64,000 nucleotides of DNA from Ulva prolifera (GCA_023078555.1 CM041198.1:5894924-5958923); one strand, 5' to 3'; counted from the stretch's first letter, positions 30,619 to 64,000 are shown. Made by a program: numbers and translations. The notes: generated by a model from the letters alone, not told the origin.

Positions 30619-30626
30619 GTGAGGAA
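30619..30626 (+). repeat. Target-site duplication of TIR element 1, left
   Basis: GTGAGGAA; identical copy at 32073-32080. Confidence 0.9.
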
Positions 30627-32072
30627 AGGGGGTCAACCACTCCCGCTACATGGTGGGCCCACCTACGGCGCGCAAGATCGGCTGCGATTTTGGCCGCTTG
30701 GGGAAGACTTTGGCTATTGTCTATGTTGAATGGGGATTCGTAGTGTGTCATCTCACTCGGGTGGGGAAAATGGCCCATGATCGTCCATATGGCTCGTCTG
30801 GTTGGGGAAAATCGGCCTTTCGCGACGCTGGCTCCCCAACCGGCCCAGACGCTCAGTCGCCTCCCCAAACCTCTTCAAACGTTCGCAGGCGTCCCCAAAC
30901 GCCTTTAAAATGAGCTCTTTAAAGCTCTTGTTGGTGATCGCAAGGCTGTATGTGCATTTTTTTCGTTGGTGAGGCTTCATGAAGCTGTATACGGCTGAGT
31001 TTCCTGGAGGCTGGCCACATAGTGACGCACGCCATGCAATTTGAGTCGTATTAATCCCTCTAATAATGCTGGATAGGTCCGAATCTCTGGATATCCGGAC
31101 AGGGCGTCCTACCTGCGATCTGTGTGTAGCATGGGATAGTGGCTCAAACTGAATTATACACGAGATATCAAAGCTTCACTGCCTGATCCTGATTGATCGT
31201 CACTCTCGTAGAACGTTTGATATCGGCATGGGGCGCATGAGTATCTTGATTCCTGTGACAGGCCTGACAGGCCCTTGTGATGGAGCATGATCCGGAGCTT
31301 TGCAGTCCACCTGCTAGGTGTGTACTTCTCAACGAAGACGTCAGCGTAGGTATGCTTAGGTCATCTTTTGCGTAGTGTCACTGGAGACGTGTTGAGTTAC
31401 CCTGGCCTGCTGTGATCATGCCTCGCCATTGTACACTAATGAATCATTTCAATAGAGCGGTGGATGCTGGATACACGGTGGATACATCATTGATGCGCAT
31501 TTGCGGTATCATTAGAATGACATGCTGTGAAATAAGGTGTAGATGTGACGGTGCATTACAAAACACGGGCATTCCCCATTGCACATAAAATTGAGGCAGG
31601 GTCCTTCAACACGCAATATTCAACACGCAATATTCAACACGCAATATTCTACACGCAATATGCTGCCAATCAATGCTGACATGTCGCCTGACCAGTGCGT
31701 GAGCGCCCCGCCATGTCGGCCCGATCAGCTAGCGCGCCGTTGAATAGTGCCTCACTTACCGAACGCTACCCACAAATGTGACAGAAGCAATATGTCATAA
31801 CCCGGTGAGTATCATAGCATATTTTGAGTGTGCTACGTGTTCTCGATGCAATGGCACACGTTTGGGCATGAACGACCCTCGTTTGGGGAAAAGCGCGGAA
31901 ATTCGACAAAACCCGGGTTTGCGATGGGGAGACTCCCCAACAGCGAGATGATACACTACGAATGCCCATTCAACATAGACAATAGCCAAAGTCTTCCCCA
32001 AGCGGCCAAAATCGCAGCCGATCTTGCGCGCCGTAGGTGGGCCCACCATGTAGCGGGAGTGGTTGACCCCCT
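30627..32072 (+). mobile_element. TIR element 1 (family T8), complete, non-autonomous, 1446 bp
   Basis: Both ends read AGGGGGTCAACCACTCCCGC inward and stay alike for about 145 bp (CATGGTGGGCCCACCTACG, CGCTTGGGGAAGACTTTGG). A perfect 8-bp duplication GTGAGGAA borders them. Subterminal TTGGGGA/TCCCCAA motifs recur in both arms. The interior has no transposase-like frame. It contains a 14-bp tandem repeat at 31605-31660 (TTCAACACGCAATA, four units). An 8-bp duplication fits hAT, P, Merlin or KDZ/Zisupton type transposons. The superfamily is not settled. Confidence 0.9.
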
Positions 32073-32155
32073 GTGAGGAATAACCTTTGCAATCATATAC
32101 ATGTACATTTACCTCCAAGGCCTGTTTGTGTGGGCAACAACATCAACATACACAT

Positions 32156-32767
32156 TCAGTCGCCCTCTTGCATACCAAAGGTCAGCAAGCGCTCTAACTC
32201 ATCACGCTCAATGTCCTGCTCATCATCAGTGTCACTATAACCTACCTCCTCCCCACCTTCAGCACCTGGAAGCACATCAGACAAAACAGCGTCCCACGCC
32301 TCATCATGCTGCATGGCTACTGCCTCAGCAAGCTTACGGACGAGGAGGTCGCAATTTGAATCTTTCACCAGTTTCTCATACATGTCTATCATGGTGAGTG
32401 CACCCTCATCATCTATGGGCCTGTTGGGATCAAAATGCTGCTCGCGCAAGCTTTCGTATGTGATAGCTTGTTTCACACGTATTTGAGAGTCAAGGGTGGC
32501 CGTATGATCACCACCTAGCTGACTCCTCGCAGCCTGGTTCGTGACGGACGTGCTAGCAACCTCATCATGATCGTGCACGAGCGCGATTTCTGGGGGCTGA
32601 TCCCCGGAAACCGAACCGACTAAGCATTGCTCAAAGCGACAGGCGCACACAGCGTCTATTGGCCTTTGAGCTGTGCTTCGCAACATTATGTAGTGATACA
32701 CAGCCAGCGTGTTGCGGCTACGGAGCAAAGCATCAAGTGACGTTTCGGAAAGTGCACCTGAGGACAC
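32156..32767 (-). CDS. Unknown 203-residue ORF beside TIR element 1
   Basis: Single open frame, acidic in its C-terminal half (GYSDTDDEQDIERDELERLL), with a helical middle (ALTMIDMYEKLVKDSN). Not recognised. Composition differs from the spliced genes, and there is no intron border evidence. It starts 84 bp beyond the right end of TIR element 1 and could be a leftover transposon gene or a host exon. Confidence 0.4.
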   Translation of the reverse strand: MSSGALSETSLDALLRSRNTLAVYHYIMLRSTAQRPIDAVCACRFEQCLVGSVSGDQPPEIALVHDHDEVASTSVTNQAARSQLGGDHTATLDSQIRVKQAITYESLREQHFDPNRPIDDEGALTMIDMYEKLVKDSNCDLLVRKLAEAVAMQHDEAWDAVLSDVLPGAEGGEEVGYSDTDDEQDIERDELERLLTFGMQEGD

Positions 32768-35700
32768 TGTGCACCTAGGTGCAGCTGCTCGTCAAGATCG
32801 CTCGCTTCGCTCGCTCGTGTGCTCGCAGCACTATCTATGTGAATACATCCCACTCGCTTCGCTCGCACGTCGCACATTTCAGCGGGCAAGACCGCTCAGA
32901 CGCCCGAGACACAGCGGGCTGCGCCCGCTGGCATTTGCTGTAACAGCCCATTTTCAGCGGCGTAAACCGTCGACTTTTTAAAATATTGGCGGCATTTTCA
33001 GGAAAAACGTCTATTTCAGCTGGAAAACCGGCGGTTTGTAGAGCACTGGATATCTCTCACACTAGCGCATGCTGGCACAATTAACACCTTTTCTTATATG
33101 CGTAGCGACTTGTCCAGCCATGTGGACGGTCGCACAGGCATAGCTTTCGAATTACCGATTTCGAGTAGTACACAGTATAATCACACGTACGCTCAGTGGG
33201 CTTACGTGCCTGCACTGCCACGTGTGACTGCACGCGTCCACCAGCCTTACGTGCACACAGCATCAGCACTGTGTACAGCCTTCTCCCGGCACAATGTGTC
33301 CCGTCATAGGCTTATTATGGCTTTATGCGACTAGCCGAATCGTTGTTGCACATATTACGTCTTACTGTGTGCATTACCGCCGTTACACAGGGTCCGCCCG
33401 GCGGGCTCCAGGGTTGGCATGCACGATAATATCTGTACAGCCACCTTAAGCTGCCCACGAATTACGTGCGCAGCCTTGCTTACACTTATCTCAGGCTCTG
33501 TAAGCCACAACTTAAGATCTCCCGCGCTTATGCGGGTTCTGGGATCAGTGTGGCAGTTATGCGGCACGATTCCGCGAGGCCAGCTTTGACAGGGGGATTG
33601 ACCTGGGCGCACACACCCCGGTATTTATACCGAGCGCTTGCTGGGACCAGACACGCTTGACAGTAGTCTGGTTGGGGCGCCATCCATTTCTGCACTGGCA
33701 CGTCGCATCCTTGCGTGTGAGTGTACACCTGCTCTGCTTGTGCCTATGCAGCCCTCATGCTGCGGCAATCTTGACCCATCACTGTTTCTTCTTACTGCCA
33801 TCGAGGTCTGTTACCCAAGACTAGACCAATAGGTCTCAACAGGCTCATCCAAACACAACTGTTGGACATGATTTGGTTGGCGTCACAATGCTCATGTCTA
33901 CTTATATGCCAAAAAAGGCAAAAACAGTGATATTCAACATCATATACACGTATGTCTTTGGAGATGCGAAACAGCCAGCAAGCCAACAGTGGCGGAGAAA
34001 ATTAAGGCAGCTCTTCTGGCATTGAACAAGACAGCTGACACAGACAACGCCAAAAAGTCAAGATCGGCTGTCAAACTTCACTATCTTTCGTGGGCTTACA
34101 AGCAGGGCTGCAAACTGAAGGACACATTGACTGATGACATGGGCCTCAGCTCCACTGAGGCTGACTTGTCTGTGTCTGGTCTCCGGGGATCGGTAGACTT
34201 CCTACATGACACAGCGCCCGCTCATGACGCCTGATGGCATTTCGCCGTAGCTGCACTATATCTCGTTATCTCGAGTACTGCAGCGCTGCGGGCTGCTGGC
34301 TGCTAACACCGTTCTAACACAATAGGTACATGAGGCAAGACGCCACGGTTTACCTGCGGATTTCGACTCAGTATTCTATTCGTTATCTCGTGTAAACATC
34401 ACTATTCAATGAATAGTATTCATCCTCAATGGCTTCAACGCCAAAGATTTCAGGAAAACATGCAAATTGGCATGATAAAAGGTAGCAGCCTCGGAGGACA
34501 CGAAGAAGGTCATACTTCATGAATAGAGGGATGTACACTGTACCACAGCACTATCCGTTCCACTCTTGTGGCAACATTGTGTAGGGCCTATGAGCGAGCA
34601 TGATGATGTGGTGCAAGAATTTGGCCAAACGCAAGACGGTGGAGTTGGGAGAGCCGGCACCAGTCCCAAAATTTTGGCCACTGACACATCGAACGGCAAA
34701 CAATCGTGAGATAGATGCACCATGCTCCTACATCCACAGAGTAACAGATGCAGACAAGCCTCGAAAGCAGATGGCGCACGACCCGGAACCGGACAATTTC
34801 ACCACAAAGGACATGTTTGCTCCGTCAGGTGAGAAAGCATTTATCGGCATGCAGAAGTTCAGAAATGTCAACAGCTATGCATTGTGGCAAGCACCAGGTA
34901 TTGGCTACATACCAGTCACCACACTCAACCCCCATCAATGCCCCACAGTGCGGATACATCCTTCTGGTGGGTGTACACATGATGAACGCCATCCTCTTGT
35001 ATGTGGTAAGCCCTGCACACCCGCGATACTCTCTACACAATACATACCATGGCTGATACTGCTGTGGACGTTACTGCGTTCCATACTGCATGCTGACACT
35101 TTCAGTAGGGCGGGCATGTGTTGTGAAAGTGCCTCGTAGCGCACAAGGCAGGTGCACATGCGAATGCACGCACGGTTTGACACGTGGCAGACACCAGCCC
35201 GCGAATGAGAAGACACATTCCAGCTCTCTGTATAGGTCGTACAAGGTCATGGCTCAAGTATCTGACTCAGATACTGACCATGCAGGTGTGATCCCAGATC
35301 TCAGGCGTCATGTGCTAAGTACTCCGCACACATACTTAACATTTCGCCCAACTTAACTTACGGTATGACGCTTCCACTCGCGCTTGCATTTGAACAGCAT
35401 GTGACCCCCGCATGAGCTGATTTAGTTCTGTGACAATCTAGGGAGCACTGCCCCGGAGCCTTCAGGTGAACCGGTTCGGGAGGAAGTGAACAACGAAGAA
35501 TCTGATGTGCCTTCGAATCATGAGCTAGCTAGATGAGGTGATGGCAGTTAGTGAATCTAACAAACCTTCACCGGCACAGTCTAGAGAAGCTCGCTTACAG
35601 CACCGCTAGCTCACACATCGCAGGACCGGTGAAGGGCAGCAAAGTTCAGAGGAAGCGCGAGGCAACGAGAGCCACAGAGGTGATGCCCCAGGTGCGACCA

Positions 35701-36671
35701 CCTCGAGTGTGTGCTGCAGCACGCTGTGCATCCGACAAGATGCACTGCCAGTGCCCTTGCTGAGTTGTGCTCAGGCACACTGCGAGTTGCCACGACACAT
35801 TGGCAATGCGACACGAGTGGCACCTGTTGGAGACGACTGCAGTGCCAGACCCAGTGGTAGCCCCAATGCCACGATGGCTCACAACTCGCAGAAGGATACC
35901 GGCTCAAAGGAAACGCAAACATACTAGCAGGAGGCAGGGCAAGAAGCAGGGTGGTACGAAGAGCACAAGGACCGTGGAGCGCACCCAGCCATGATCTTGC
36001 CCCGAGTGAAGGTGAGACCCCCGGCTTAACCTTCAATATATGATCATGCTCACCACTGACATATTCGCTGGAGCATTGGCTCTAATGTGTACGGCAGCCG
36101 ACCTTGGTGTGCAGGCACGGCGTCGTTGACTACAAGCGAGGACCGCAGCAAGATCTCTGAGCATTCAATTGGTAGACTTGCTGTGAACAAGTGATCTAAG
36201 GGTCGCGTAGCGGACTGTTCACTTCGAAGTGAATTCTTGAGACTGCGCCGCTTCCCTGCATTTGACGCAGGTGACCACAGAGCCAGCGCCACGAGCATGT
36301 GAGATGCCGATGAGGCCGACAGCAATGCTAGAATATTGTAATAGATGAAATGTGATCATTAGAGCTGCTTTTTACGTGTACTGCGTGTCTGTGCGCCCTT
36401 GCTCACCCGTGTTGCACACCTGCCACTTGCGTCGCGTACTCGGCGCTACGCACCCAAGAGTGCGCAACCTGTAGGCAGGTTCTCGTTCCAACTCAGGTGC
36501 GCAAGCCAGAGTGCGGAAGCGCCGCAACATTCACAGAGAAGGCAGATTTTGCGAACAAGCGTGCTGCTGTATGCAGTTCAACCACATGAATACTGCTCTT
36601 TCGTTGTTTGGCGCCGGGCGGTATCGCAGAGGTGTGGCTGGTGCAGCTTCATGCGGGCTGGAAACGCCACA
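32768..36671. other. Long stretch with only weak ORFs
   Basis: No gene assigned. At 33989-34234 (+) an 81-codon frame begins with GTG (AEKIKAALLALNKTADTDNA) and may be part of an exon after a CAACAG acceptor. At 34600-34900 (+) another frame contains MAHDPEPDNFTTKDMFAPSG. Neither is recognised. Near 32780-32940 there are short GC-rich repeats (CGCTCGCTTCGCTCGC) and a 17-bp palindrome AGCGGGCTGCGCCCGCT. Confidence 0.35.
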
Positions 36672-36687
36672 CACATACCTCTGCATA

Positions 36688-37298
36688 CGGGAGGGTTGGC
36701 CCTGCCGCGTTCGCCTTCCTGAACCGGCTTGCCGACCTTGCTGCAGGTTCGGGCGCTGCCTCCCGGCGGCTGTTCTTGGAGAATGCGATGCGCGACCTGT
36801 CCACGACGCTGTGCCTCGCGGTGGCTCAACAGGTTCACGCCGCTGCCCCGCTGATGGCGCGTCATGCGGGCAAGGCAGTTTTGTCGGGGCTGACGGTCCC
36901 GTCCGATGACATCACGCCGCTCACAGGCCACCCGGCCTGAGCGGCCATGCGGGCCCGCCCGGGCTGCGTGGTAGGCAGTCGCCGCTGCGTGTCACGGTGC
37001 GCTCGTGGCCTTGTCCGCTTTGTTGTGGTGGCGGCTCAGGCATGCCGCGTTTCGCTGGTGTCTTCCCCGTGCGCCTGCGTGTGGCCCGCCGTTGGGGCGC
37101 AGCCGGGTAGTTTGGGCGGGCTGGGCTGGATTTTGGGGGTTCCGGGTGTGGGTTTGCGGGCGGGGTGGTGGGCGAGGGCTGGGCTTGGGGGGTTGTGCTG
37201 GGGGAGGCGGGGGCCTCCCCGGGCTGGGGGTTGTTGTTGCGGTCTCGCTGTTTGTTTGCTGGGCGGCCTTGGCTGCTTGTGCTTCCGAGGCTCGTACG
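36688..37298 (+). mobile_element. LINE-A copy, 5' half (ORF2 end and part of 3' UTR)
   Basis: Encodes the C-terminus of LINE ORF2 up to the stop at 36938-36940 (FLNRLADLAAGSGAASRRL, FLENAMRDLSTTL, VPSDDITPLTGHPA). The 3' UTR follows that of the 25494-26093 copy. It breaks off at 37298 and resumes at 44180. The outer 16-bp duplication CACATACCTyTGCATA lies at 36672-36687 and 44399-44414 with one mismatch. Confidence 0.85.
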
Positions 37299-37906
37299 AC
37301 TAGGAGAATGGTGACATTCCGCCGCGGAACCGTAGGCGTTCCGCTGACAGAGGAACGTTCCTATGAGGCTCTCGACCTTCCGCCCGCGTCCGTATGCTTC
37401 ACAAGGACCGATGGTCGCGGAATGTCCTATGGCTTCGTGGGCAACAGCGCTCACAGGAATGTGTGCGCTCTTCCATAGCGCGAGGCAGGCCAATCATTCT
37501 CCGCAGATAAAAAACACTGGAAAGCATTGCGTACTGAGGCGGACGCAGCAGCGCACATGTAAAAATTGTTACAACCGAGTACATGGATGAAGACAAACAT
37601 TAAAGAAGCTGCGCCCATGTAGGTCCAGCCGTCTAAGCTGGAACAAGTTTACACAAGAGTGAACGGAGAAGACGTACACCACAGGATATCCACAGGATAA
37701 TATATATTGAAAAGGATTGAGCACTCATGCCTGCAGATCCGATGCACACGTAAGACGAGGACGTGCCTGACAAGTTGGAGCTACTCTCCTTTAGGTGGTC
37801 AAGTATGGACTGGAGGAGACAACTGCTCCTGTCGCTGAGTGGTCGGTGTGGCACCTTCCATTCCGATCTGAATCGATGCACATGTGCCCAGTCAGCAACG
37901 TCGTGG

Positions 37907-37931
37907 AATGGTCGGTGCCACACCGACCATT
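37907..37931. repeat. Outlying hairpin related to the palindrome array
   Basis: AATGGTCGGTG and CACCGACCATT with a 3-nt loop, followed by ACGGGG. It resembles the 17-copy array at 41795-42905 (GAATGGTTGGTGG) with C for T at two places. Confidence 0.7.
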
Positions 37932-38018
37932 ACGGGGTCACTCTTTTGTGATTACGGGGTCGAGTAATGCATGCGCTAGTCACCACTGCAGTGTCGATGG
38001 AGAGCCCATGGGCTGATG

Positions 38019-38052
38019 GAGATGCAGTGCTCGTGCACGAGCACTGCATCTC
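38019..38052. repeat. Perfect 34-bp palindrome
   Basis: Arms of 17 bp starting GAGATGCAGTGCTCGTG with no spacer. Confidence 0.95.
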
Positions 38053-38455
38053 GCCATGGTGCATCAACGATCTCTGGAGCGAGTCTGGTACCAACCGAGC
38101 ATCTTCTCACAGCACTGTAAGCCAATTCATTGAGCTAGTATAAGCGTCCGGAGTAACCAGTCGGCGCCGATATCGACTCATGTATTTCTATTTGATTTGT
38201 ATCGACTCTCTTTGTATTTCTCTGGTACTGTCCTGACATGCACGGAGGCTAGCTGAAGCTGTACAGCATGTGGCACGAATACTGCTTGCGATCAATTTGT
38301 ATAGCGTGTAATGACATGTCTGGTGTGGGTGCACCCACGTGGTGAGGGCGCTGTGGCCTGTCTTTATGGCGATGGTCAGCCTGACCCTGGCGTGGCAGCA
38401 CCCAGACATGAAGGGGGCAGAGGGCATAATTATGCCCTCTTATAACACCACAGAA

Positions 38456-39655
38456 ACACCAGGTGCCACTGTGCTGCGGCAGCGATGGGCAGCAACACTG
38501 TCAACCCCGCTGCACTGCGTGGGGGGGCAGAGGGGGTAAGAGTACAGAAACACCAGGTGCCACTGTGCTGCGGCAGCGATGGGCAGCACCACTGTCAACC
38601 CCGCTGCACTGCGTGGGGGGGCAGAGGGGGTAACAGCACAGACACACCAGGTGCCACTGTGCTGCTCAACGATGGGCAGCAACATTGTCAACCCCGCTGC
38701 ACTGCGTGGGGGGGCAGAGGGGGTAACAGCACAGACACACCAGGTGCCACTGTGCTGCGGCAGCGATGGCCAGCACCACTGTCATCCCCGCTGCACTGCG
38801 TGGGGGGGCAGAGGGGGTAACAGCACAGAAACACCAGGTGCCACTGTGCTGCGGCAGCGATGGGCAGCAACACTGTCAACCCCGCTGCACTGCGTGGGGG
38901 GGCAGAGGGGGTAACAGCACAGAAGAACCAAGTGCCGTTGTGCTGCGGCAGCGATGGGCAGCAACACTGTCAACCCCGCTGCACTGCGTGGGGGGGCAGA
39001 GGGGGTAACAGCACAGAAACACCAGGCGCCACTGTGCTGCGGCAACGATGAGCAGCATCACTGTCATCCCCGCAGCACTGCGTGGGGGGGCGGAGGGTAT
39101 AACAGCACAGAAACACCAGGTGCCGCTGTGCTACGGCAACGATGGGCAGCAACACTGTCATCCCCGCAGCACTGCGTGGGGGGGCAGAGGGGGTAACAGC
39201 ACAGAAGAACCAAGTGCCGTTGTGCTACGGCAACGATGGGCAGCAACACTGTCAACCCCGCTGCACTGCGTGGGAGGGCAGAGGGGGTAACAGCACAGAC
39301 ACACCAGGTGCCACTGTGCTGCGGCAACGATGGGCAGCAACACTGTCAACCCCGCTGCACTGCGTGGGGGGGCAGAGGGGGTAACAGCACAGAAACACCA
39401 GGCGCCACTGTGCTGCGGCAACGATGAGCAGCATCACTGTCATCCCCGCAGCACTGCGTGGGGGGGCAGAGGGGGTAACAGCACAGAAGAACCAGGTGCC
39501 GCTGTGATACGGCAACGTTGGGCAGCATCACTGTCAACCCCGCTGCACTGCGTGGGGGGGTAGAGGGGGTAACAGCACAAAAAAACCAGGTGCCACTGTG
39601 CTGCGGCAGCGATGGGCAGCATCACTCTCACCCCCTCTGCTCTGCGTGATGAGGC
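38456..39655 (+). repeat. 94-bp minisatellite, about 13 units
   Basis: Unit landmarks: ACACCAGGTGCCACTGTGC, TGCGGCAGCGATGGGCAGC, CCCCGCTGCACTGCGTGGG, GGGCAGAGGGGGTAACAGC. Units start near 38456, 38550, 38645 and so on every 94 bp; the last is degenerate. The open frames with repeated peptides here are products of the array. Confidence 0.95.
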
Positions 39656-40747: not shown

Positions 40748-40784
40748 ACTATATTACAAAAGAGTGAACGGGAGAAAACAAACA
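40748..40784 (-). mobile_element. LINE-B tail, 37 bp, with 13-bp duplication
   Basis: Only the last bases of LINE-B (reverse complement ends CACTCTTTTGTAAT). Flanked by CAGCTGCTTGAGG at 40735-40747 and 40785-40797, perfect. Confidence 0.85.
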
Positions 40785-44870: not shown

Positions 44871-44878
44871 ACCTGATG

Positions 44879-47116
44879 AGGGGGTCATGCACTCCCGCTA
44901 AAGGGTGGGGCCAGTAAGGGCGCGCAAATTCAACAGCGAATTTGCCAAATTGGGGAAGCATTTGAGTATTGTCTATGTTGTTTGGGCACTCTGGGAGGTC
45001 GATCCCAGCGTTGGGGAGCCTCCCCAACGCGATGACCCATTTCAGCGAGAACGGGCGATTCTCCCCAATCGCGCTTATTTGTTCCCCAACCGCGCGGCAT
45101 CGTGTCCAGTGCACGGAGAGCATCAAAAATGACATACAACACACGATGTGGTTGCTTCTGTTGGTGCTTGGTACATTTTCGTTGTGTGTGTGGGTGACCT
45201 CACCATGTGTAACGACGTTGGGCTGCCGTAAACCTGTCTGACCATCGCTGGCTAGCGGTTATCTGGCCGTCAATTGTTAAAGTATAGTGTACTGAATGTA
45301 TTTGCGTGTGGCATACAAAGGTTACCAACGTGATCCCGTGAGATGCCAAGCCCCTGCGCGCGCATGCACCAGCAATGGTAATGCCAGATTAATCTGCGAT
45401 AGGACCATGCGGTAACATATTGCAGTTTTGCCAGACAGTAGCGCCTGCTAGCAAGCTGGGTTGACGAATTGCGCATCGGTGAGAGCAGAATGCGGTGATC
45501 ATTCGCAACGCAACACAACTGCGACACATAAAATCATTCCACGGATACGCCGGAGACTTATCAGCTAAAATATGCTTTATTTTCATGTAGCCTCCTTGCG
45601 AAAGACTGAACAAATATGGTGCATGTACAGAAAATGCACATGTTGCAAAAGACTCACCGAGCCTACTCACCACCTCCCACTATACAACGATGAGACTACA
45701 CAGGGCAGTCCAGGGATTCAGTGGAGTAAGCATTGATTCATGAGCTGCACGATCTGCGAACTATTTCCAGCTCTGCAGCTGCACGGAGGCCTTCACATTG
45801 CAACTGCTCTGAACCACCGTCTTTTTTTTCAATCGGTGTCCACACGACACCGAGGAGATAGCCGGTTGGATAATCTGCTAGCCCGCTTCAGTCAGCCACG
45901 AATCCACACCAGCGCACTGTCACAGTGCATGCGCCTGCGGGCAGCAGTGTGGTGACAGGTGCACCCATGCACGGATGATCCGCGGATCACGTGTAGGGGT
46001 AAGCCGCCAGCGGGATTGTCCCGGAGTAGTGAAGGAGATCCTGCGAGGATCTCCCGCCGTAATCTTGACTATTCAGTGTGCATATATGGTTGTGCACACA
46101 GAGAGCTGTGACCATTATTCTCACTGTTTCACGGTACTAGCTGTACCTGTCTCCCCTTAGCATCTCTCTGGTTCTACCTCTGTGCGCAATAGGTATGAGA
46201 TGCTGGCCTCCTGACCTGACGTAAGACTGCGTGTCTGACCTGCGGATAGATAGCTTTTCTGACACGCACATCCACACTGGGCTACAGTGTATTGCATCTG
46301 CCTTATCAAAGAGGCATCAGCTCAACGGATGTGACACCTTCGATTACAAGCACTCAACACGTGCATATGGCACGGATGACTCTTCCTTTTATATCAGACA
46401 ATGTCGATTGGCAACATCGTATCTTAATGCAGCCGGATATGGTATATGGTTGCCATCGAGGCTGCTCATTGGCAGTGATAGTGATGCTGCATTGCGATCA
46501 TACAGTCCGCAGAATTGTAACTCATAGCTCTAAATACAAGTGACTGAAATTGATTGAAGAGCTCTGACCTGGATGAGCAGAGTGATGAGATGGTGAATGA
46601 CAACAAATCATGCACAGCTGTCTGTCAGTTGATACGTGCTCCAACGGGAGAGGATGTATGCTGAACTGAGGTACATATTTCATGCCTTAAATGGGTATCA
46701 CACAGGTGTGTACACATTGAGTTCCGGGACGTAGTGGCATGATGGTCAGACTTCAGACTAAAACGTCACCACATGAGCACCTGGCGGGGCCATAGCAACA
46801 GGCGCGACCCCCCAGGGGCTCCTAAATGCAATTATAGCCTACACAGAGATGGTTTGGGAAGGATTGGGCAAGCGGCTGTGCGATTGGGAAGGATCGGGGA
46901 GGATTGGGGAGCCGCGCTCCCCAAATGGCGATTCTCCCCAACCCAACAAGCCTAGTCGGCGAATACGGGCCGATTTCCCCAATCGTACGAGTTAGACCTC
47001 CCAGATTGTGCATTAGACGTAAACAATAGTCAAAAGCTTGCCCAATCAGTCAAAATCGCCGTCAATTTTGCGCGCCCTTACTGGTCCCACCCTTTAGCGG
47101 GAGTGCATGACCCCCT
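44879..47116 (+). mobile_element. TIR element 2 (family T8), complete, 2238 bp
   Basis: Ends read AGGGGGTCATGCACTCCCGC inward on both sides. Perfect 8-bp duplication ACCTGATG at 44871-44878 and 47117-47124. The arms stay similar for over 150 bp (AAAGGGTGGG, CAGTAAGGGCGCGCAAA) and carry many TTGGGGA/TCCCCAA motifs. No transposase frame; interior ORFs are short and unrecognised. Confidence 0.9.
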
Positions 47117-47265
47117 ACCTGATGTCAAGCGATGCACATACGGCTTCAGGAAAAACAGCGATAGCATCATGAGAGGCTAACATCTGCTGCTCTTTTTATG
47201 AATTTTTGACCGTGTGAGCCTGCCAACTGTGCGCTGCTTCGATGACCGCGCGAACAAGAACAGAC

Positions 47266-49018
47266 AGGGGGTCATGCACTCCCGCTACATGGTGGGACCC
47301 CGGTGGGCGCGCAAAATCCACCGCGAATTTGACACTTTGGGGAAGGTTTCCATTATTGTCTCAGTCGATTGGGCAATCCTAGTGTACGATCTCGGCGTTG
47401 GGGAGCCTCCCCAACAGAAGCAGCCCTTTTGGCGGAAAAGCCCGATTCTCCCCAAAGCCGTTCAGATGCCCCCCAACGCTACGGCAACATGCCCAATGCA
47501 CGCAAGACATCAAGAATAAGACCCAACACATCTCATGTTATTATCCTTGCGTATGGTAGCTGTTTGTGATTTCGCGAGGACTCGACGGTGATTGGCGGTT
47601 GACTGCACAATTGGGCCCATGGTTGCGCGAACACAGTCCGGTCGTGAGATCTTGCGAGACGGTATCGACGACGTGTCTGGCGCATATTACATAAAACGAA
47701 AACCTTTGACGGCGATACAGCTCCAAGAAGTTGTGGAGGTCGTGGTGGCTCGTGCTTTGGATGCCCCCAACGACGTCGGGGACGATCAAATCAGAGAATT
47801 CTGCTTCAGAGTGTCCGATCTGGAACGATTTTGTGCTACCCATGGGCTCAGGTAGACTGTACGAATGGTGCTCTGATGACATGTGAAGAGCCAGTAGAAT
47901 ACTATCGTGTAGTAACCACCAAGACTGCCAAACAGCAATCTGCTGCTTCGCAAGAGCTCCTCGCTCAAAGTGAGGTTGAAATAAGGGGTGATGAGGATGA
48001 TTGTGGGGATGCTGAACGTGTGCATGTCAGCGGCTCCTCTATCATCATGAGGTCAGTCAAAGTGGATTGGCAACGGTGTCGGTTGCTCGAGCCACAGCTA
48101 GTATTAGATACCATATTAGGGGCTCTTGTTCTATAGCATCAACATGTATGCGTATCGAATACCGAATACGCTGGTAGTACTGTCCTCTTGTGAAAGTACC
48201 GCGTGCCCACTAATAGACATGGATCAAGACTTTATGACACTTCACCGCTAGGCCTGTTCACATGATAATGAACTTTTTCAACTGATCGGCAGGGCACTTC
48301 GGAGAGTTGCGGGGTCCCGGCAGCATTTCAGTTGAAAGTATGACAGCACGAGGTTTCCATCTGCCTCCAGATCATTGCTCTCCTATAACATACTCCTAGA
48401 CAATGCAATGAAATGTTATTGAGCAAGCCAACAGGCTTAATTGACATGAACGTTCCTCCTTGCTATCCCAACAAGAGGCAGCGCTGGGTGCCTGCAACAA
48501 GCAGTTGTGCAGACCTACACCAAATCAGTGAACCACAGACAACAAGCACCTCAAGCTGTGTTATCACCGATGTAAATAAACACACCAGGACTTGATTTTA
48601 TTAATACACAGTCGCGTGGGCTCGTACAGCACAACTCAGGGCTACATGGGCCTGGTGTGTCATTCTGCGATGATAACACGTCCATATGACCACACCTGGA
48701 CGCCCCACAAAGAGGCGCGACCATCTACATGACGTAAAACATCATAATAAACGTTGTAGAGGCGGTTTGGGGAGGATTGGGCAAGCGGGCGAGGCGTTGG
48801 GCAGCTTTGGGGAGCAGCGCCCGCGAAAAGCGATTCTCCCCAACGAGACAGCCCTATTTGGCGAATTAGGGCCATTCTCCCCAACAAACTAAAGTGAAAC
48901 ACTACGATTGCCCAATCGACTGAGACAATAGTGGAAACCTTCCCCAAAGTGTCAAATTCGCGGTGGATTTTGCGCGCCCACCGGGGTCCCACCATGTAGC
49001 GGGAGTGCATGACCCCCT
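47266..49018 (+). mobile_element. TIR element 3 (family T8), complete, 1753 bp
   Basis: Ends read AGGGGGTCATGCACTCCCGC. Perfect 8-bp duplication GAACAGAC at 47258-47265 and 49019-49026. The outer roughly 130 bp of both arms are nearly identical (CATGGTGGGACCCCGGTGGG), closer than in element 2. It sits only 134 bp beyond the right TSD of element 2. Confidence 0.9.
47619..47855 (+). CDS. Unknown 78-codon ORF inside TIR element 3
   Basis: Frame from ATG at 47619: MVARTQSGREILRDGIDDVSG, later LQEVVEVVVARALDAPNDVG. It looks protein-like but is not recognised. It could be a captured exon or a relic of a transposon gene. Confidence 0.3.
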   Translation: MVARTQSGREILRDGIDDVSGAYYIKRKPLTAIQLQEVVEVVVARALDAPNDVGDDQIREFCFRVSDLERFCATHGLR

Positions 49019-49026
49019 GAACAGAC

Positions 49027-53599: not shown

Positions 53600-53710
53600 T
53601 ATTACAAAAGAGTGAACGGGAGAAAACAAACACTGAAACCGAATCTCATCCGCATCAACATCAAAACACACGCATACGAACACAACAACCACACTCACAA
53701 CTGCTAGTGC
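53600..53710 (-). mobile_element. LINE-B fragment, 111 bp, with 12-bp duplication
   Basis: Flanked by ATGCCTACTAGT at 53588-53599 and 53711-53722, perfect. Confidence 0.88.
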
Positions 53711-53722
53711 ATGCCTACTAGT

Positions 53723-56617: not shown

Positions 56618-59600
56618 ATGCTGAACATGCTGGTGTCAGTGCTGATTGCCACCGCGGGCGTTGTGATCGCCCGCTGCCCGATGGGCCACGGTGCGGTGGG
56701 AGGCTTCAACGCCGTGATGCCAGGCGGGCTGACGCAGGGCCCCCTGAACACTGTGACGGGCCGCGACCTGCTGTGGGCCAACAGCGGCCCGATAGGCGGC
56801 AGCAGGTACATCCCGCAGACCACTGTGCCGCAGCAGGAAGCTCTCCCGCCTCCAGCGGCTCTGCCGCCGCTGTCGGCAGAGACGTATGCCGCCCTCCAGG
56901 CCGACATCGAGGCGCTACTCGGGAACAGCCTCCCAGAGTTCCCGGCGGATTTCGGCACGTACCGCGGCCTGATGATCCGGCTCGCGTGGCACTGCAGCGG
57001 CACGTACCGTCAATCCGACGGCCGGGGCGGCTGCGACGGGGCGCGCATCCGCTTTGCGCCGGAGTTCCAGTGGCCGGACAACACGCAGCTCGACAAGGCA
57101 CTCGGCCTGCTGCAGCCGCTGTACGACAAGTATGAGGGCGTCATTTCCTGGTGCGGCCCTCCGTCAAATCCACCTTGGCAATGCTGCTAGCTCTACAGAG
57201 GCACTGAATCCGATGCAGTGCACGTACAACTAGACTCTGTACTTTGCACAGGCACTGCGGCCCGTCTGACTGGCCATTTTGTTGGTCATCATGATCTGTA
57301 GCTCATGAGCTACACAAGCGCAGCTGCAATCGCTGCCACATCATGCTGTTAAATTGCTTACCTGCTCTACTATTTTATGGCAGAAACCAGTATATCAATG
57401 TCCGAAGTGCATCTGTCGCGCCGCCGCAGCTCTCAATGCTTATCCAATGTGGCCCTGTCCGATCGGACGCCGAGTTAGTGCATAGAGATATAATAGGATG
57501 GCCAGCTTGAAGCCACACAGCAGCTGGCTCAGTGAACTTGGTCTGAACAACAAGCACACAAGCACACAAGCATGCAGGGGTGACCTGATTGTGCTCACGG
57601 GCAACGTTGCCATCTCCAGCGGCGGCGGCCCGGTCCTTGGCTTCTGCGGCGGCCGCCGCGATGATGTCGACGGCTCCGCGTCCCTACCCTTCGGCCCAAA
57701 CGCCATCCAGCAGTCGCTGTCGCCGTGCCCGGTGAACGGCCTGTGCAAGGACCCTTTGGGCGCGAGCACCGTCGGCCTCATCTATGTTAACCCCGCCGGC
57801 CCAGTTGATGCCCCAGGCGACCCCGCGGCGAGCGCAAAGGACATCCGCAAAATCTTTGGCAACATGGGCTTCAACGACCGCGAATCAGTCGCGCTGATCG
57901 GCGGAGGCCACGCGTTTGGCAAGGTGCGTATATATGACAGCTGCACACCTGTGCGGCACAGATAGAGCGTGCGCAACGTGGACGGTGCAACGGCGCTGTG
58001 AGAACTGCTTTAAATCGTTTTGGTCTGCACTGTGCATGTGTGAAACCGGTTACAAAAGAGTGAACGGGAGTAGACAGACGTACACCAAAACCGAATCTCA
58101 TCCGAATCACCAGCAACACATACACTGTGCATGTATCGATTTCTGCGCACGTGTGCCCGGAGTCGTTGACAGATCGCCGTAATGCCATTGTGTCTCGTCT
58201 GTCTGACTGACTGTGACAATGTGCACAGAATTCGATGATCGCATTGTTAACAGCCCCCCCCCCCCCTCCCCAATATGCATCCGACCGTCGTGATGACACC
58301 ATGTGCCCTGCAGTGTCACGGTGCATGCGAGGACGGCCCCGGGCCCGGCCCGATCGAGAGCCCCAGCGCGCCGTACCCCGGCGTGTGCGAAGCCTTCCCC
58401 GAGGACCCCCGCGGCGCCGGCCGCAACACCTTCACCTCCGGCTTCGAGGGCCCCTGGACCACCACTCCTACCAAGTGGAGCAACCAGTACTTTAAGAATC
58501 TTCTCATCTACGACTGGCGGCTCGAGGAGAGCCCCGCCGGGCAGCCGCAGTTCCACCCCTACAACAAGACGACCGGAGACCCCGGGCCAGACATCATGAT
58601 GCTCGTGTCGGATGTTGCCTTCATCAACGACCCAGAGTACCTGAAGCTGGTGGAGGAGTACGCAGCAGACCAGGCTGCGCTGGACCGTGACTTTGCGGCG
58701 GTGTGGTATCGGCTGACCACTCAGGACATGGGCCCTGTCACGCGCTGCACCGGCCCCGACGTGCCGCAACCACAGCCGTTCCAGAACCCTCTGCCAGAGG
58801 CGGCGGTGGAGGTGAAGGCTGGCCGCAATACTTTCATCAAGGTGGCGGAAGAGATTGTGAGCGTGCTCCGCAGCGAAGAAGATGTCGCTCTGGTGGCAAA
58901 TCTGGCTTACAACTGCGCCTCCACATTCCGAGCAACGAACTACGCTGGAGGCTGCAACGGAGGCCGCATCCGCTTCCCGCCACAGGTGCGTTTGTGCCAC
59001 CGTTTTCACCCTCCCTGTCTGATTCATGATCACATTCGTTTCATCAGCAACTGTATTGCACCATCTCAAAGCCAAGGATAACACCCCTGGTCCTGTTGGA
59101 TAATCTGGAATCCGGTCGTGTGGTACATCCGATCCGGGATTCCCTCCGCTGTACCGCATTTATGACATAGATGTTGCAGTGCCAAACCTGTTGTCATTGG
59201 TCGCCCCCACATGGCAGTCCTAGTGCTGCCACAGGGCAAATTGGTACTGTCACATGTCCCCAGGATTGAGCATGATCATGAGCAGAGGTGTGCGCGTGCA
59301 GATCGACCTGCCATCCAACGAGGGCGCAAGGGAGGCTCTGGAGCTGCTGCAGCCTGTGTACGACGCCTTTGAGGGCGAGGTCAGCTTTGCAGACATCATT
59401 GTGCTGGCCGGCAGCGTCGCGCTGGAGAAGGCAGGCGGCCCACGCGTGCCCTTCTGCCCTGGCCGTGTCGATGCCACCGACGGCGAGTCCGCGCAGGACC
59501 TGTCGCCGCGGATGTACTACCTCGACCCCCTCACAGCCGCCCTGGACAGTGCCCGAGTGCGCCTCTTCATCCATTGGTTGTTGAAATTCAATGTGAAACA

Positions 59601-60201
59601 AGTCAGGGTGAAGCATCTGCTTGGCTTCAGTTTCTGTGTGATCCAGCACGCATTTGGCTGTCTTTGTCTGACACATATGTGACATGCATGATATCAGATT
59701 TCGGCTATCAGCCTTCCGCCAGCGCAATATTACATGTTACATATTGTTGACCAGCATCATTGCTGAAGACACCAGAGCTCTGTACACATTCAGAGTCCGC
59801 GAAGCAGCAGCCGTCCTTCGTTTGAGCGCCGATGCTTGCAGGTGATGGGGCTGTCTGCTTCTCAGTATGTTGCCCTGGCCGCCCGCCCCACCGCCACCTC
59901 GCCCATCCTCTCCAACAGCGTCTTTAAGACCCTGGTCGAAAACACCTGGGAGCCGGTGCTTGCAATTGAGGGCGATGCCATCGCCGTGGACCCTCTGGAG
60001 GGCGAGTACCGCGCCGTGGGGGACTCCGAGGTGGTGGTGCCGGTGGCGCAGTGGGTGCTGCTGCGAGACGCTGAGCTGCGCTTCCACGTGCGTGAGTTTG
60101 CCGAGAGTGAGGAGGCGCTGGCAAAGGCTTTTGGCAGCGCTTGGGAGTATCTCATGAACGCTGACCGCTTTGATGGGCCGGCCAGGAATGTGTGCTCTTG
60201 A
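56618..60201 (+). CDS. katG: Secreted catalase-peroxidase (KatG family, class I haem peroxidase)
   Basis: Breaks down hydrogen peroxide. Exons 56618-57150, 57578-57923, 58314-58985, 59302-59556, 59842-60201: 2166 nt, 721 residues, the usual KatG size. An N-terminal signal peptide (MLVSVLIATAGVVIARC) predicts secretion or an organelle lumen. The N-terminal haem domain has the distal Arg-Trp-His (MIRLAWHCSGTYR), GRGGCDGARIRF, the Tyr loop (GLIYVNPAGP) and the proximal His (ALIGGGHAFGK). WSNQYFKNLLIYDW and ALDRDFAAVWYRLTTQDMGP follow. The C-terminal haemless domain has NGGRIRFPPQ, VSFADIIVLAGS and AWEYLMNADRFD. The Met of the Met-Tyr-Trp adduct is not where expected; that stretch reads SAPYPGVCEAFPEDP. 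The Trp and Tyr are present. Catalase activity is therefore uncertain. Intron 2 holds a LINE-B insertion. Confidence 0.92.
58040..58132 (-). mobile_element. LINE-B fragment in KatG intron 2
   Basis: 93-bp insert flanked by CACTGTGCATGT at 58028-58039 and 58133-58144, perfect. It lies antisense to the gene. Confidence 0.88.
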
Positions 60202-60640
60202 GTGGAGTCTCATTCGCGGCTGTATCTGCCATCAAGGATGTACATCATACTTTATCCATCCCTGTCTAATAACGTTAACTATGCCGCATGGCGGCCATCC
60301 GAACACTTTTGAGAGTAACCCTTCCCATGGTGAATGTTATTGTTGCGGTGCTGAGGTGGAGGATTGCCTGAGTCATAGAGTACAATGTCGGCTGAGTGTT
60401 TCTGTGTTTAATCGAACACAGACTCCAGCAATTCATAAATTTCTGGAGTGTGTCCGTCGCGTAGAAGGTGCATAAGTACTGATTTGTGACACCCAATTGT
60501 AACAGCTGTCTAGACCTACTGCACATTGGATTCAACGACTAGGACAAACACCAGCTATCAGACCAGCATGTGCTGAGTTTTCAGCCTTTATATAAATCTG
60601 ACCTCTGGGATGCAGGCTGCAGCAGCCTGTAGCTTGATGT
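60202..60640. other. KatG 3' flank
   Basis: No further exon recognised. Contains the possible poly(A) signal at 60498. Confidence 0.4.
60498..60502 (+). terminator. Possible TGTAA polyadenylation signal of KatG
   Basis: TGTAA about 297 nt after the KatG stop. Confidence 0.4.
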
Positions 60641-60679
60641 AACCATATCATATATATATGGTTTATATATGATATGGTT
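60641..60679. repeat. AT-rich hairpin
   Basis: 16-bp perfect arms (AACCATATCATATATA) with a 7-nt loop. Confidence 0.9.
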
Positions 60680-60954
60680 TCAAAGTTCCTCACCCTGAAC
60701 GGACAAATTACTGTGACGAAAACCCGTTCCGCAATTGAGGCATATTTTGTGAACCCTATTCGTCCGACAAATGCCGGTATATCCGATTCACAGCCATAGC
60801 TGACACTTTCGATGGTAGCCTGCGGAATGCGCCGACAACTCACCGCTATGTTATCCACTAGTGTATGATATCATATGAATCATTCGGACATGATTGCAGT
60901 ACTAGTCAAGGCAGAAGACTGCGCAGCAGGCGTAAGCTTTCATCACTGTTCCAT

Positions 60955-61540
60955 GATAAGACAGCGTCGCGGAGCAGCACCCACTGCGCCACCGGCGCCA
61001 CCACCTCGAGCTCGGCGCCCCCCACGGCGCGGTACTCACCCTCCAACGGGTCCACGGCAATGGCGTCGCCCTCACGCACCGGTTTCCATGTGTTTTCAAC
61101 CAGGCCTAGGGTCTTGAAGATGCTGTTGGAGAGGGCGGGGGTGTTTACTGGGGGGCGGCAGTGAGGGCGACAAACTGAGACACAGACAGCCCCGTCACTT
61201 GCAATCGCACTCCATCTGCAGTTGCAGATATTGGCATGATCATACTATGACAGTATAGTACACCACACATATGCATGCACGCAATACGGCTGTGACTTCC
61301 ACATCACGATGCTGATGTTGCTGGACTCAGCATTGATGTGCATACAATGCATACATTCGTCAAGCTGGGCCACATGATGCAGACAGCGAAACCGCGCTTG
61401 TTTGCCAAAAACGCTGAAGCGCGGCAGAGGTTTGACGATGAGCTGTGTATGAGCCATGGGCAACTAACATTCATGAGGAGACCGCACTCGCGCACTGTCC
61501 AGGGCGGCTGTGAGGGGGTCAAGGTACCAATCAGGTACTA
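60955..61540 (-). pseudogene. Partial inverted copy of KatG exons 4-5
   Basis: On the minus strand, about 61525-61490 encodes the end of KatG exon 4 (LDPLTAALDSAR) and continues into an intron-like stretch beginning GTGCGG. An acceptor-like GCAAG at about 61195 is followed by VTGLSVSQFVALTAAPQ and a stop. In another frame come LSNSIFKTL, then VENTW, EGDAIAVDPLEGEYRAVGG and PVAQWVLLRDA. These match KatG exon 5. The copy ends abruptly at about 60955. The stop, frameshifts and missing ends make it non-functional. Confidence 0.85.
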
Positions 61541-61571
61541 GTAATGTACTAGCAGTATGTCGGTGTTGCCA

Positions 61572-62174
61572 CACATCTTGCGCAGACTTGGTGTGCTGAG
61601 TCGTTTTGTGGCAACTGCAACTGATGTGCATTGGAAAGCTGCCAAGCGTGTGCTGCGGTACATTGCTGGTACGCTTGATAGGGGCATTGTGTATCAGCGT
61701 GGTATGCCCGCTGTTGAGGCATATACAGATGTTGATTACGCTGGTGAGCCTGACTCTACGAAGAGCACCTTAGATGCAATTGTACTCATACATGGTGGTC
61801 TTGTGGTCTGGAAATCCAAGTTGCAGACTGTGGTAGCTTGCTCAACATGTGAGGCTGAGTATGTGGCAGCAGCTGCAGCGGTGAAGGAGGTGTTGTGGGT
61901 TCACAAGCTCATGGCTGAGCTGAGTGGGAAGATGCAGCGTATTCGGCTGTATGGGGACAACCAGTCCGCCCTTGTTTTGATGAAGCAACATACTCCAGGA
62001 GCAGCTGGTAGGACAAAGCACATCGACATTGCGTTTCATTTTGTCCGCCACCGTGTGATGCAAGGAGACATTGAAGCAGTGTTCGTCAAGACAGAGGAGA
62101 TGAAGGCTGATATCCTCACCAAGGCTCTGCCAGGCCCGAAGCAGGAGGCTGGGAATGCAGATCTCTCAAATTGA
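61572..62174 (+). pseudogene. Ty1/copia polyprotein end: RT tail and RNase H
   Basis: Open frame with copia RNase H marks: VHWKAAKRVLRYIAGT, AYTDVDYAGEPDSTKST, VACSTCEAEYVAAAAA, LYGDNQSALVL, KHIDIAFHFVRHRV and KADILTKALP before the stop. The reverse transcriptase core is absent; homology begins abruptly at about 61575, beside the KatG copy. This is a 5'-truncated element. Confidence 0.9.
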
Positions 62175-62190
62175 ATCAGTGTGATGATTC

Positions 62191-62198
62191 AGGGGGGC
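62191..62198 (+). other. Copia polypurine tract
   Basis: AGGGGGGC just after the pol stop and directly before a TGTGGTGAAATC start, the expected place for a polypurine tract and 3' LTR. Confidence 0.65.
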
Positions 62199-62920
62199 TG
62201 TGGTGAAATCAGGAGTTTTCAGGAGAATCATAAGCATGGCTCCATATGAGACTGCTATGAGGGAGCTAGAAGCTAGCATATCAAGAGGTGGTTGTACGCA
62301 TGGTTGTTGTACACGTGCTCGACGCGATCCCTGAGATGAAGGGATTCAGAAAGCGGGAGCGTTTGTTGTGTTGCACATAGGTAGACATTATGTGTCTCTG
62401 TGCTTCAATGCATATAAACATTGTGTTGACTCTAGTAGGACATCTTGTCTATTGGAGTAAAATACAGGTATGGTGTCCTCTAGCTGACATGCATGGATAT
62501 GTGGTTGGTTTGTGCTTGTGGACACATAGTCTGCTGAGTTGGTATAACTCAGCACGTGGAATGCAGGCTGCATGAACCTGTGAGTGCTCTAGACGGAGAT
62601 GCACTCGAGTTCACAGTTGAGCTCACAGCAGCTGTGTTCTTTCACAGGTATACTTCTATTTAGTGTATACCTCTGTAATCTTGTCTATTGGAGTTAAACA
62701 CCGGCTGCATGAATCTGTGAGTACTCTAGAGGGAGATACACTCACAGCAGCTGTGTTCTTTCACACAACTATCTACCGCATGTCACATCTGTGCGAAACA
62801 TGGGCCTATCTGACTGCAAAGTATATATAGTTTGCAGGCCTAGGCCCATAGCTATAGGCCTAGCACTGAAGCCGAGATCCACAGACTGTGGAGTCGCTTC
62901 AACTCGTAGTCACAGAAAAA
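62199..62920 (+). repeat. Probable copia LTR (3' border not fixed)
   Basis: Starts TGTGGTGAAATCAGGAG. Contains a TATATATA patch near 62822. An internal duplication repeats TCTTGTCTATTGGAG (62444 and 62676) and CACAGCAGCTGTGTTCTTTCACA (about 62625 and 62743). I could not place the terminal CA with certainty. Confidence 0.5.
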
Positions 62921-63263
62921 TAGAGACGTTGGGTCTTACTGTGGTGATGTGATGAGTGTGTACACTCAACTTGAGGCACTATGTGCCGATGTGGGCTAGC
63001 GATCGCTTCGATTGAAACTGTTAGAAGTGGGGGAGGAGTTGAACACTGTGCGCGGCGAGGTTCTCCACTCTTCCCCACATGTAATCATCTCACGTTTGAC
63101 TGAGCATGCTGATTTGCTCAAGCAACAGCGGTTGCAGGCTAGGTCTGGGGCGCTTGCGGGCAAACCAGGCCATGGCTGGCTGTTGTGGGATATCCATAAC
63201 TGGGGATCCAAGAATATAGATGACATAATCAAGGGAGGTGTCATCTAACAAAGGACTCGTTGC

Positions 63264-63325
63264 TTCAGGTGAGCCCCAGTGGTAGAGCATGTAGTGTGTA
63301 CTCATGAGGTCACCGGTTCAGTTCT
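63264..63325 (+). other. tRNA-like sequence
   Basis: CCCCAGTGGTAGAGCATG resembles an A box or D arm, and 32 nt later CGGTTCAGTTC resembles a B box. Anticodon stem and acceptor stem do not pair well, so it may be a tRNA relic or SINE head. Confidence 0.3.
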
Positions 63326-63439
63326 TACTTTCATTTCTGCCGCGCGACTTTACGCGATGGCAAGGTACGCTCCCCTCCACGTCGTCATGCACAGTCAGCA
63401 TGCTGACCAGCTCAGGCACGCGTATTAACCCCTGTGCAC

Positions 63440-63913
63440 ACTCGATGAGACTAACACGCGTCTTGACACTGGCGCAATCAGCCACGAGGCGACGGAGCTG
63501 CAGTAACCGCGCTCGACGCTGGCAAGGCTCCTCGCGAAGAGACCATCTACTGCTTCTTCTGCAAGAAGAAGGGACATTTACGCGCGAACTGCCCCCAGCG
63601 CAAACAGGCCGCGGCCAAAGATGTATGCGCTGTAGAATTGCCTGAAGAATTCCCGGACCACGATGCGTTGAAACCGTGGAATTTCATCATAGATAGCAGT
63701 TCCGATATTCAGCAACGGAGGCAATCGCGAAATAATTACCGAGTATGGTCCGTGCCAGAGGACTGCCAAATCCGCGTGACCACGCAAGATTCCTATTTCG
63801 GGCAGGGGAACCATTCAGGTGAACCAGGGCACTTATTTGGATGAGCATGGGAACAAGCATCCTCTGGATGTGGAAATCCCGGGTGTTTACTACGCTCCTG
63901 AGTGTCCGGATAA
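63440..63913 (+). pseudogene. Copia gag-protease remnant with frameshifts
   Basis: A gag-like stretch (LDETNTRLDTGAISHEATEL) ends in a stop; in the next frame come CFFCKKKGHLRANCPQ at 63551 (CCHC zinc knuckle), then KPWNFIIDSSSD (protease DSG changed to DSS). A further frameshift leads to GRGTIQVNQGTYLDEHGNKH and PGVYYAPECPDK. The frame is cut at 63913 by TIR element 4. Confidence 0.8.
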
Positions 63914-64000
63914 AGGGGGTCAACCACTCCCGGGGTCTACATGGTGGGCCCACCTACGACGCGCACGTTCGGCTGCGATTTTGACTGTTTGGGGAAAACT
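63914..64000 (+). mobile_element. TIR element 4 (family T8), left end only
   Basis: AGGGGGTCAACCACTCCCGG and then CATGGTGGGCCCACCTACG, closest to element 1. The preceding 8 bp, CCGGATAA, should be its target duplication. It is cut by the window end. Confidence 0.85.

Follow-up and report, generated by a model that had tools for sequence, protein, structure and literature searches.

The TSDs (target-site duplications) of Ac/Ds and Novosib measure 8 bp; Mutator-like elements (MULEs) have long terminal inverted repeats (TIRs) and a usual TSD of 9 bp. Long TIRs also occur in Galileo, and the termini of the P element are CA...TG. The present study concerns T8, a family of TIR transposons found in a stretch of 64,000 nucleotides from Ulva prolifera (GCA_023078555.1 CM041198.1:5894924-5958923), which is called the window here and corresponds to C3:5894924-5958923 in the contig numbering used below. 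We propose, with a probability of roughly 0.85, that T8 is a two-component cut-and-paste system consisting of an autonomous element of 8.03 kb, which carries a candidate transposase gene, and of short dependent copies. T8 is most likely a complete transposon system and not a transposase-less one.

Ac/Ds of maize, a hAT system, resembles T8 in having an autonomous element together with dependants that are internally deleted or unrelated in their interiors and that have TIRs and subterminal repeats in common (PMC3260210). It differs in its termini, and the hAT domain was not detected in the open reading frames (ORFs) of T8. The P element has an 8-bp TSD (PMC3276498, PMC7776569), a published target motif of GTCCGGAC (PMC3276498 table 4) and the catalytic residues D230, D303 and E531 at spacings of 73 and 228 (PMC7776569). 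T8 resembles the P superfamily (Drosophila P, zebrafish Pdre2/THAP9) in the 8-bp TSD, the preference for GTCCGGAC known for P, a motif around the catalytic Glu, the D-D-E order and the presence of internally deleted copies. It differs from that superfamily in lacking the P domains of Pfam, in its numerous subterminal motifs, in termini of the form AG...CT and in wider spacings between the two D residues and between D and E. Zisupton and Dileera (KDZ) have the same 8-bp TSD (PMC12730594); the KDZ profile was not found in the ORFs of the gene-bearing element L116 described below. The MULE profile was also not found there, four MULE loci had no T8 ends, and the TSD of T8 is 8 bp.

Termini and target sites of the T8 family

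As the first-pass annotation of the window had recommended a genome-wide search, the host genome (88.9 Mb, 44 contigs) was scanned for the terminal 18-mer AGGGGGTCAWSCACTCCC. There are 138 forward and 133 reverse matches, hence 271 exact termini, seven of them in the window, and the reversed pattern used as a control gave 0 and 0. From the 261 of the 271 termini that were listed, 102 neighbouring pairs less than 16 kb apart and 57 unpaired ends were obtained. The pairing is by adjacency, and only elements named individually were read. The annotation had recognized two subfamilies, with TCAAC and TCATG ends. Both are present; however, the TCATG class splits, and at least five end types exist in the genome: AAC (40 + 39 ends), CTACATGG or subfamily B (8 + 7), GAAG (18 + 23), CTAAAGGG or subfamily C (23 + 18) and TCC (36 + 34), with CAAAAGGG/CTGAAGGG as further variants. 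Of the paired AAC elements 29 of 36 measure 1407-1446 bp, and of the paired C elements 12 of 14 measure 1865-1895 bp. About 150-310 bp of the ends are common across subfamilies at about 67-78% identity, and the interiors are subfamily-specific. Three TCC elements (L017, L019, L025) have 280-308 bp of ends in common at 81-85%, and more within the same sub-type.

An exact 8-bp TSD flanks 21 of the 24 elements that were read with both flanks. Three more elements of the 8-kb family have one as well, giving 24 of 27, and mismatched pairs of flanks, used as a control, never agreed (0/552). In the empty-site test the flanks were joined across the element and 23 such junctions were compared with the sequences in hand. 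Empty paralogous sites were found for two junctions, those of window copies 2 and 3. Both lie in L026, each with the 8-mer present once: ACCTGTTG against ACCTGATG of copy 2 (one substitution), and GAACAGAC of copy 3 exactly. This region of L026 (8163-8921) is an unoccupied copy of a dispersed repeat of about 800 bp, with about 80% identity to the window flanks; both empty sites are found there because copies 2 and 3 sit in the same dispersed repeat. The description of T8 as a TIR family with 8-bp duplications is therefore borne out at many loci and at two empty sites, and flanks lacking the duplication, which would have spoken against it, did not emerge as the rule.

The target sites, rebuilt from flank and TSD, show a symmetrised preference for GTCCGGAC among the 21 exact TSDs; when 5000 random sets were drawn from the window, 4978 of them had a weaker preference. 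This is the motif published for P; it was read from the same TSD data, so that the fit is post hoc. The hAT element hobo prefers GTNCGNAC, which is similar, and therefore P and hAT cannot be told apart by this motif.

The dense TTGGGG/CCCCAA motifs seen earlier in the arms were confirmed by counting. They occur 172 times in 11,000 bp of ends (250 bp from each end of 22 elements), 14 times in 27,563 bp of interiors, a count that disregards three elements carrying large nested inserts, and 26 times in the 58,476 bp of the window outside T8. In the 22 elements, inward-facing TTGGGG clusters at about 72, 104, 133-135, 176 and 193, and CCCCAA at 144, 185, 206-208, 216, 227, 237, 247 and 267; no single element has every position. 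As the spacings lie near 10, 20, 41 and 62 bp, the sites may share one face of the helix.

The gene-bearing 8-kb form

Seven of the 102 neighbouring pairs are longer than 2.6 kb. Three contain nested retrotransposon-like frames, and four are TCC elements of the 8.03-kb form (Table 1). The elements of 9488 and 5027 bp have the exact TSDs TACGGGTG and GCTTGTGC. Because the exact TSDs of the four all differ, these are separate insertions. With near-identical gene-bearing copies at separate sites, T8 looks recently active.

The minus strand of L116 contains open frames of 567, 386 and 323 residues and shorter ones upstream. The genome was searched with two L116 exon frames joined by an X (the Smith-Waterman comparisons below used the exons joined without it). 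The genome holds the core of the gene three times in near-identical form; both open frames recur in every copy, and each copy lies inside a T8 pair. The query also matches part of the 5-kb element at 94-95%, a fragment on C1 (C1:10505875) at 42% and a decayed relative on C4, which contains stops and has 45-73% identity by segment. For this relative overlapping loci were stitched and the pieces between stops were used separately.

Third codon positions hold most of the differences between L116 and the C4 relative: 167, compared with 47 and 83 at the other two, over rc 3781-4620, and 185, compared with 77 and 50, over rc 4981-5940. The bias follows one frame to rc 4860 and, after a stretch with no leading frame (rc 4861-4980), a different one from rc 4981 onwards; it appears again at rc 6421-6780. 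A putative GT-AG intron of 83 nt fits the change of frame. The bias indicates past coding constraint and, judged by this codon pattern, the gene was under constraint when the L116 family and the C4 relative diverged. The most conserved blocks are CCDEVAV-QVVDSIPST-PPGYEVAGLSNRC-RENNPEGV-YIMKDEG, then IPPATLLCVWI...VRGKRSFI...SCGDLTT-DDA...GADNAAPHAALARGI, and GSQECESFFG-IRSSGSLQNTGAVSCGS-VRHIPKVMMTN. Three acidic blocks are retained in the relative, with D in CCDEVAV, D in GADNAAPHAAL and E in SQECESFFGEIRSSG; in the joined-exon protein these residues are D241, D379 and E728, so that the D-D spacing is 138 and the D-E spacing 349. These conserved blocks suggest a DDE enzyme.

The short elements connect with this gene. 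L017 (1824 bp) is L116 without its middle, its nucleotides 1-1241 matching at 97.7% and 1243-1824 at 98.3%. In the window, copy 3 belongs to subfamily B, and its two exon remnants are fused directly, the last-exon remnant beginning 2 bp past the first. Since copy 3 keeps both ends of the gene in fused form, it most likely arose by internal deletion from an autonomous element of type B; a complete copy of such an element was not found. Thus in two T8 subfamilies deletion derivatives keep the ends of the same gene. It is possible to imagine the L116 gene as captured cargo and T8 as mobilised by some other, unrelated transposase encoded in the genome, where a MULE and hATs do exist. We consider this very improbable: the deletion derivatives fit a native gene, all three near-identical copies lie inside T8 ends, and the four MULE loci that were read have no T8 end within about 1.5 kb.

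The two-component mechanism may be described as follows. The autonomous element of 8.03 kb carries a predicted multi-exon gene on one of its strands, and the large protein that this gene encodes has three conserved acidic blocks. This protein, a likely DDE-type transposase, would recognise the TIR and the array of TTGGGG/CCCCAA subterminal sites, excise T8 and reintegrate it at a target whose strands are cut with a stagger of 8 bp. Short copies, those of the window included, have the ends without the complete gene and would depend on mobilisation in trans, in the manner of Ds and Ac. The ends, TSDs, empty sites, gene-bearing full-size copies, deletion derivatives and past coding constraint are direct observations; the role of the L116 protein as T8 transposase, its DDE chemistry and its binding sites are inferred.

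Several points weigh against this proposal. The intron and exons of the L116 gene are sequence predictions, the case for a transposase is one of motifs and genetic logic, and searches of Pfam, NCBIfam, PHROGs and PDB sequences gave the protein no credible match. The 6.6 kb read around the C4 relative contain no T8-like end, so that an association of this relative with T8 ends is conjectural. Subfamilies AAC, B, C and D yielded no gene-bearing form, and the interiors of AAC, C and D have no transposase similarity at E 1e-3. Three of the 27 elements have no exact TSD: L012 (2 mismatches), L025 (1) and L021 (7 of 8 positions differ). Finally, 11 of the 14 unmatched interiors described next were examined by comparison and translation only, and other gene-bearing forms may be missed.

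These interiors come from a sample of 40 of the 51 ends then unpaired, each read 371 bp inward, of which 14 had no match to a known T8 interior; of the 11 ends outside the sample, seven had already been read and four were skipped. Three of the unmatched interiors are identical and were considered as an autonomous form. They were rejected, as their flanks are identical too and they belong to a larger duplicated block with a kinase-like frame. This block, of at least about 7 kb at L095, lies at C2:3811558, C3:3346798 and C3:8285310, where 10 of 10 samples of 200 bp are identical across the three places. At L095 the protein-kinase-like frame (Pkinase, E 6e-9) is adjacent to a fragment of a T8 end, and related sequence follows at a greater distance.

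Other long copies were also rejected as autonomous forms, the contents being judged by eye: a 4.77-kb pair with a nested LINE-like frame, a 15.4-kb pair with nested Copia-like elements, a 7.9-kb pair with a nested Copia-like element that has one open frame of 1881 residues (L049 819-6461) and a 4.1-kb copy with a 2.85-kb insert and no convincing gene. A 2.56-kb copy, whose 1.25-kb insert encodes a weak hAT fragment, was rejected as well. The hAT fragment is a dimerisation fragment at L020 986-1447 (E 0.0017), whose 18.5 bits are below the curated cut-off of 21.4.

Some T8 copies occur in regular series. Five of 1876-1891 bp lie at C2:10971268-11071102 with starts 23-26 kb apart, resembling a tandem segmental array. 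Three ends 14.6 kb apart (C7:1418065, C7:1432654, C7:1447240) are perhaps a second one, and L085 suggests a miniature T8 of 279 bp at this C7 series of ends.

The coordinates of the window copies and of the four long elements are collected in Table 1. The three complete copies reported in the first-pass annotation were verified with their termini and perfect 8-bp duplications, and the fourth, of which only the beginning was visible there, proved to be a whole element with CCGGATAA on both sides. The arm length of 'over 100 bp' given there is clear for copies 1 and 3, the simple ungapped measure giving about 138, 68 and 127 bp for copies 1, 2 and 3; the first 100 bp of the inverted arms are 100, 86 and 99% identical in the same order. 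The absence of a transposase stands for copies 1 and 2, which have no transposase-gene similarity at E 1e-3, and fails for copy 3 with its gene remnants and for the family as a whole with its 8.03-kb elements. Copy 2 is enlarged beyond the usual size of subfamily C by a solo long terminal repeat (LTR) of 347 bp, which matches, at 81%, the sequences in the two LTR positions of the L049 Copia-like element and has, as read by eye, an apparent 5-bp duplication CGCAC around it. Copies 2 and 3 are 149 bp apart, both inside the same dispersed repeat of about 800 bp.

Table 1. Positions of T8 copies and their parts in the window (counted from its first nucleotide), and of the long TCC elements in the genome.
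Feature	Coordinates	Strand	Remarks
TSD GTGAGGAA, left of copy 1	30619..30626; right repeat 32073-32080		perfect 8-bp duplication
T8 copy 1, AAC subfamily, non-autonomous	30627..32072 (1446 bp)		TIR ~138 bp
TSD ACCTGATG, left of copy 2	44871..44878; right repeat 47117-47124		perfect 8-bp duplication
T8 copy 2, subfamily C (CTAAAGGG ends)	44879..47116 (2238 bp incl. nested insertion)		
Solo LTR (TG...CA, 347 bp), Copia-like, nested in copy 2	45918..46264		
TSD GAACAGAC, left of copy 3	47258..47265; right repeat 49019-49026		perfect 8-bp duplication
T8 copy 3, subfamily B (CTACATGG ends)	47266..49018 (1753 bp)		most likely an internally deleted derivative of a transposase-bearing element
Remnant of first predicted transposase exon	47604..47825	+	74 residues, 45% identity to L116 ORF 7298-7732, E 7e-19
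Remnant of last predicted transposase exon	47828..48133	+	104 aligned residues, 60% identity to L116 ORF 997-1965, E 9e-38
TSD CCGGATAA, left of copy 4	63906..63913		8 bp; same 8-mer at far side, past window
Left end of T8 copy 4, AAC subfamily	63914..64000		1955 bp in all (L048), 1868 bp beyond window
L116, TCC	C3:7020158-7028190 (8033 bp)	gene on minus strand	T8 ends, exact TSD CCTACTAT
Second 8-kb element, TCC	C9:3038948-3046982 (8035 bp)		TSD TCCCACAC; three samples 100, 100, 99.7% to L116
Third element, TCC, insertion by length	C9:5171207-5180694 (9488 bp)		sample 100% to L116 over 400/601 bp, rest unmatched
Fourth element, TCC, partial copy	C3:6309800-6314826 (5027 bp)		sample 99.8% to L116

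Classification of the predicted protein

Searches of the sequence libraries gave weak, scattered matches to unrelated families only, in Pfam at E up to 5 with nine L116 ORFs, in NCBIfam and PHROGs at E up to 1 with four ORFs each, and in PDB sequences with two ORFs and two profiles; the best match over all of these has E 0.011 or worse. A match to a named family, which would have contradicted the idea of an undescribed one, was thus not encountered in them. The viral, prokaryotic and phage collections contain no relative of the protein. In the portions of the literature searched (PMC10983969, PMC4455052, PMC12477816 and PMC4763223 among it) no family with T8 termini is described, the terminal sequence not being a search term.

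Our best single guess, held tentatively and at somewhat less than even odds, is that the protein is a highly divergent member of the P superfamily (P, THAP9, Galileo, 1360). The sequence T8 ESFFGEIRSSG aligns exactly on the E531 block of P, EHFFGSMRSRG. The C-terminal profile of T8 scores 22.6 against P, none of 60 shuffles being as high, while four hAT ORFs and one MULE ORF reach at most 16.8. The 8-bp TSD, the target preference, the same D-D-E order and the long TIRs known from Galileo point in the same direction. On the other hand, the P core, a query identical to 6p5a, recovers its own Pfam domains PF21787, PF21788 and PF21789 as a positive control, and neither the TNP-like RNase H domain nor the GTP-binding domain of P was matched in the nine L116 ORFs. 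The N-terminal part with both D blocks scores 15.6, a value that 29 of 60 shuffles reach and three hAT ORFs exceed (16.7-17.6). The whole-protein Smith-Waterman score is 46 (z 1.7, 16 of 200 shuffles as high), and one hAT ORF also reaches 46 (z 1.2). In addition, the spacings of 138 and 349 differ from 73 and 228 in P, the termini are AG...CT against CA...TG, and the post hoc fit of the target motif is shared by the similar preference of hobo. The genome profile search for the RNase H domain of P gave no match, its control being silent too.

An atypical hAT family is unlikely. It would account for the 8-bp TSD, the target motif is compatible with that of hobo, the dense subterminal repeats resemble those of Ac/Ds and Kat1, and hAT genes are present in the genome. 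However, the C-terminal dimerisation domain of hAT (PF05699) is not found in the nine L116 ORFs, while the same profile finds 16 places in the genome, and all 16 hAT loci were read without a T8 end within about 1.5 kb. Smith-Waterman comparison with four hAT ORFs gave no signal, 23 to 89 of 200 shuffles being as high.

The remaining superfamilies fare no better. The MULE domain PF10551 is not in the L116 ORFs; it has 15 matches in the genome, 11 of them with frames of 208 residues and near-equal score, and the four loci read (L051-L054) are those without nearby T8 ends. These four are 99.9-100% identical over about 3.1 kb. A partial MULE match at C3:1301501-1301650 lies about 1.1 kb outside the B-type copy C3:1302781-1304705, probably by chance. 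The KDZ domain PF18758 is not in the L116 ORFs, and the genome profile search for it was silent, as were its controls. The Merlin-type DDE domain (IS1016/IS1595) has no Pfam match in the L116 ORFs, a genome search for Merlin not having been made. From the library and alignment results, therefore, membership in P, hAT, MULE, KDZ or Merlin is not established. Each entry in the shortlist of hAT, P, Merlin and KDZ/Zisupton drawn up in the first-pass annotation fails when tested against sequence libraries; a P-like enzyme is still the best guess, by virtue of one motif, the E block, whose resemblance to P is weak.

The protein might instead belong to, or found, an undescribed superfamily of eukaryotic DDE transposases, which we regard as possible and rather less probable than a P-like origin. 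Such a superfamily would be defined by TSDs of 8 bp, by TIRs of about 40-140 bp with AG...CT termini, by a TTGGGG/CCCCAA array following them, its sites spaced at nearly whole helical turns, and by a DDE transposase encoded in several exons, which has spacings of 138 (D-D) and 349 (D-E) and is too distant from every known family for sequence profiles. It is favoured by the silence of the four libraries at permissive thresholds, by that of the viral, prokaryotic and phage collections, and by the unusual termini and spacings. Against it, the comparison covers two families of one genome, and so few sequences miss remote relatives in profile searches. The eukaryotic comparison is this genome alone, and the negative results do not extend to Repbase (e.g. 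Novosib) or Dfam.

Significance for the family

In the proposal of a two-component system, what had appeared as orphan repeats without genes becomes an autonomous/non-autonomous system with a candidate enzyme and natural deletion derivatives. As the enzyme is not recognised by the libraries searched, profile-based annotation would miss the T8 transposase. If the P-like assignment is true, the P superfamily extends beyond its current profiles; if it is not, T8 would represent a new superfamily.

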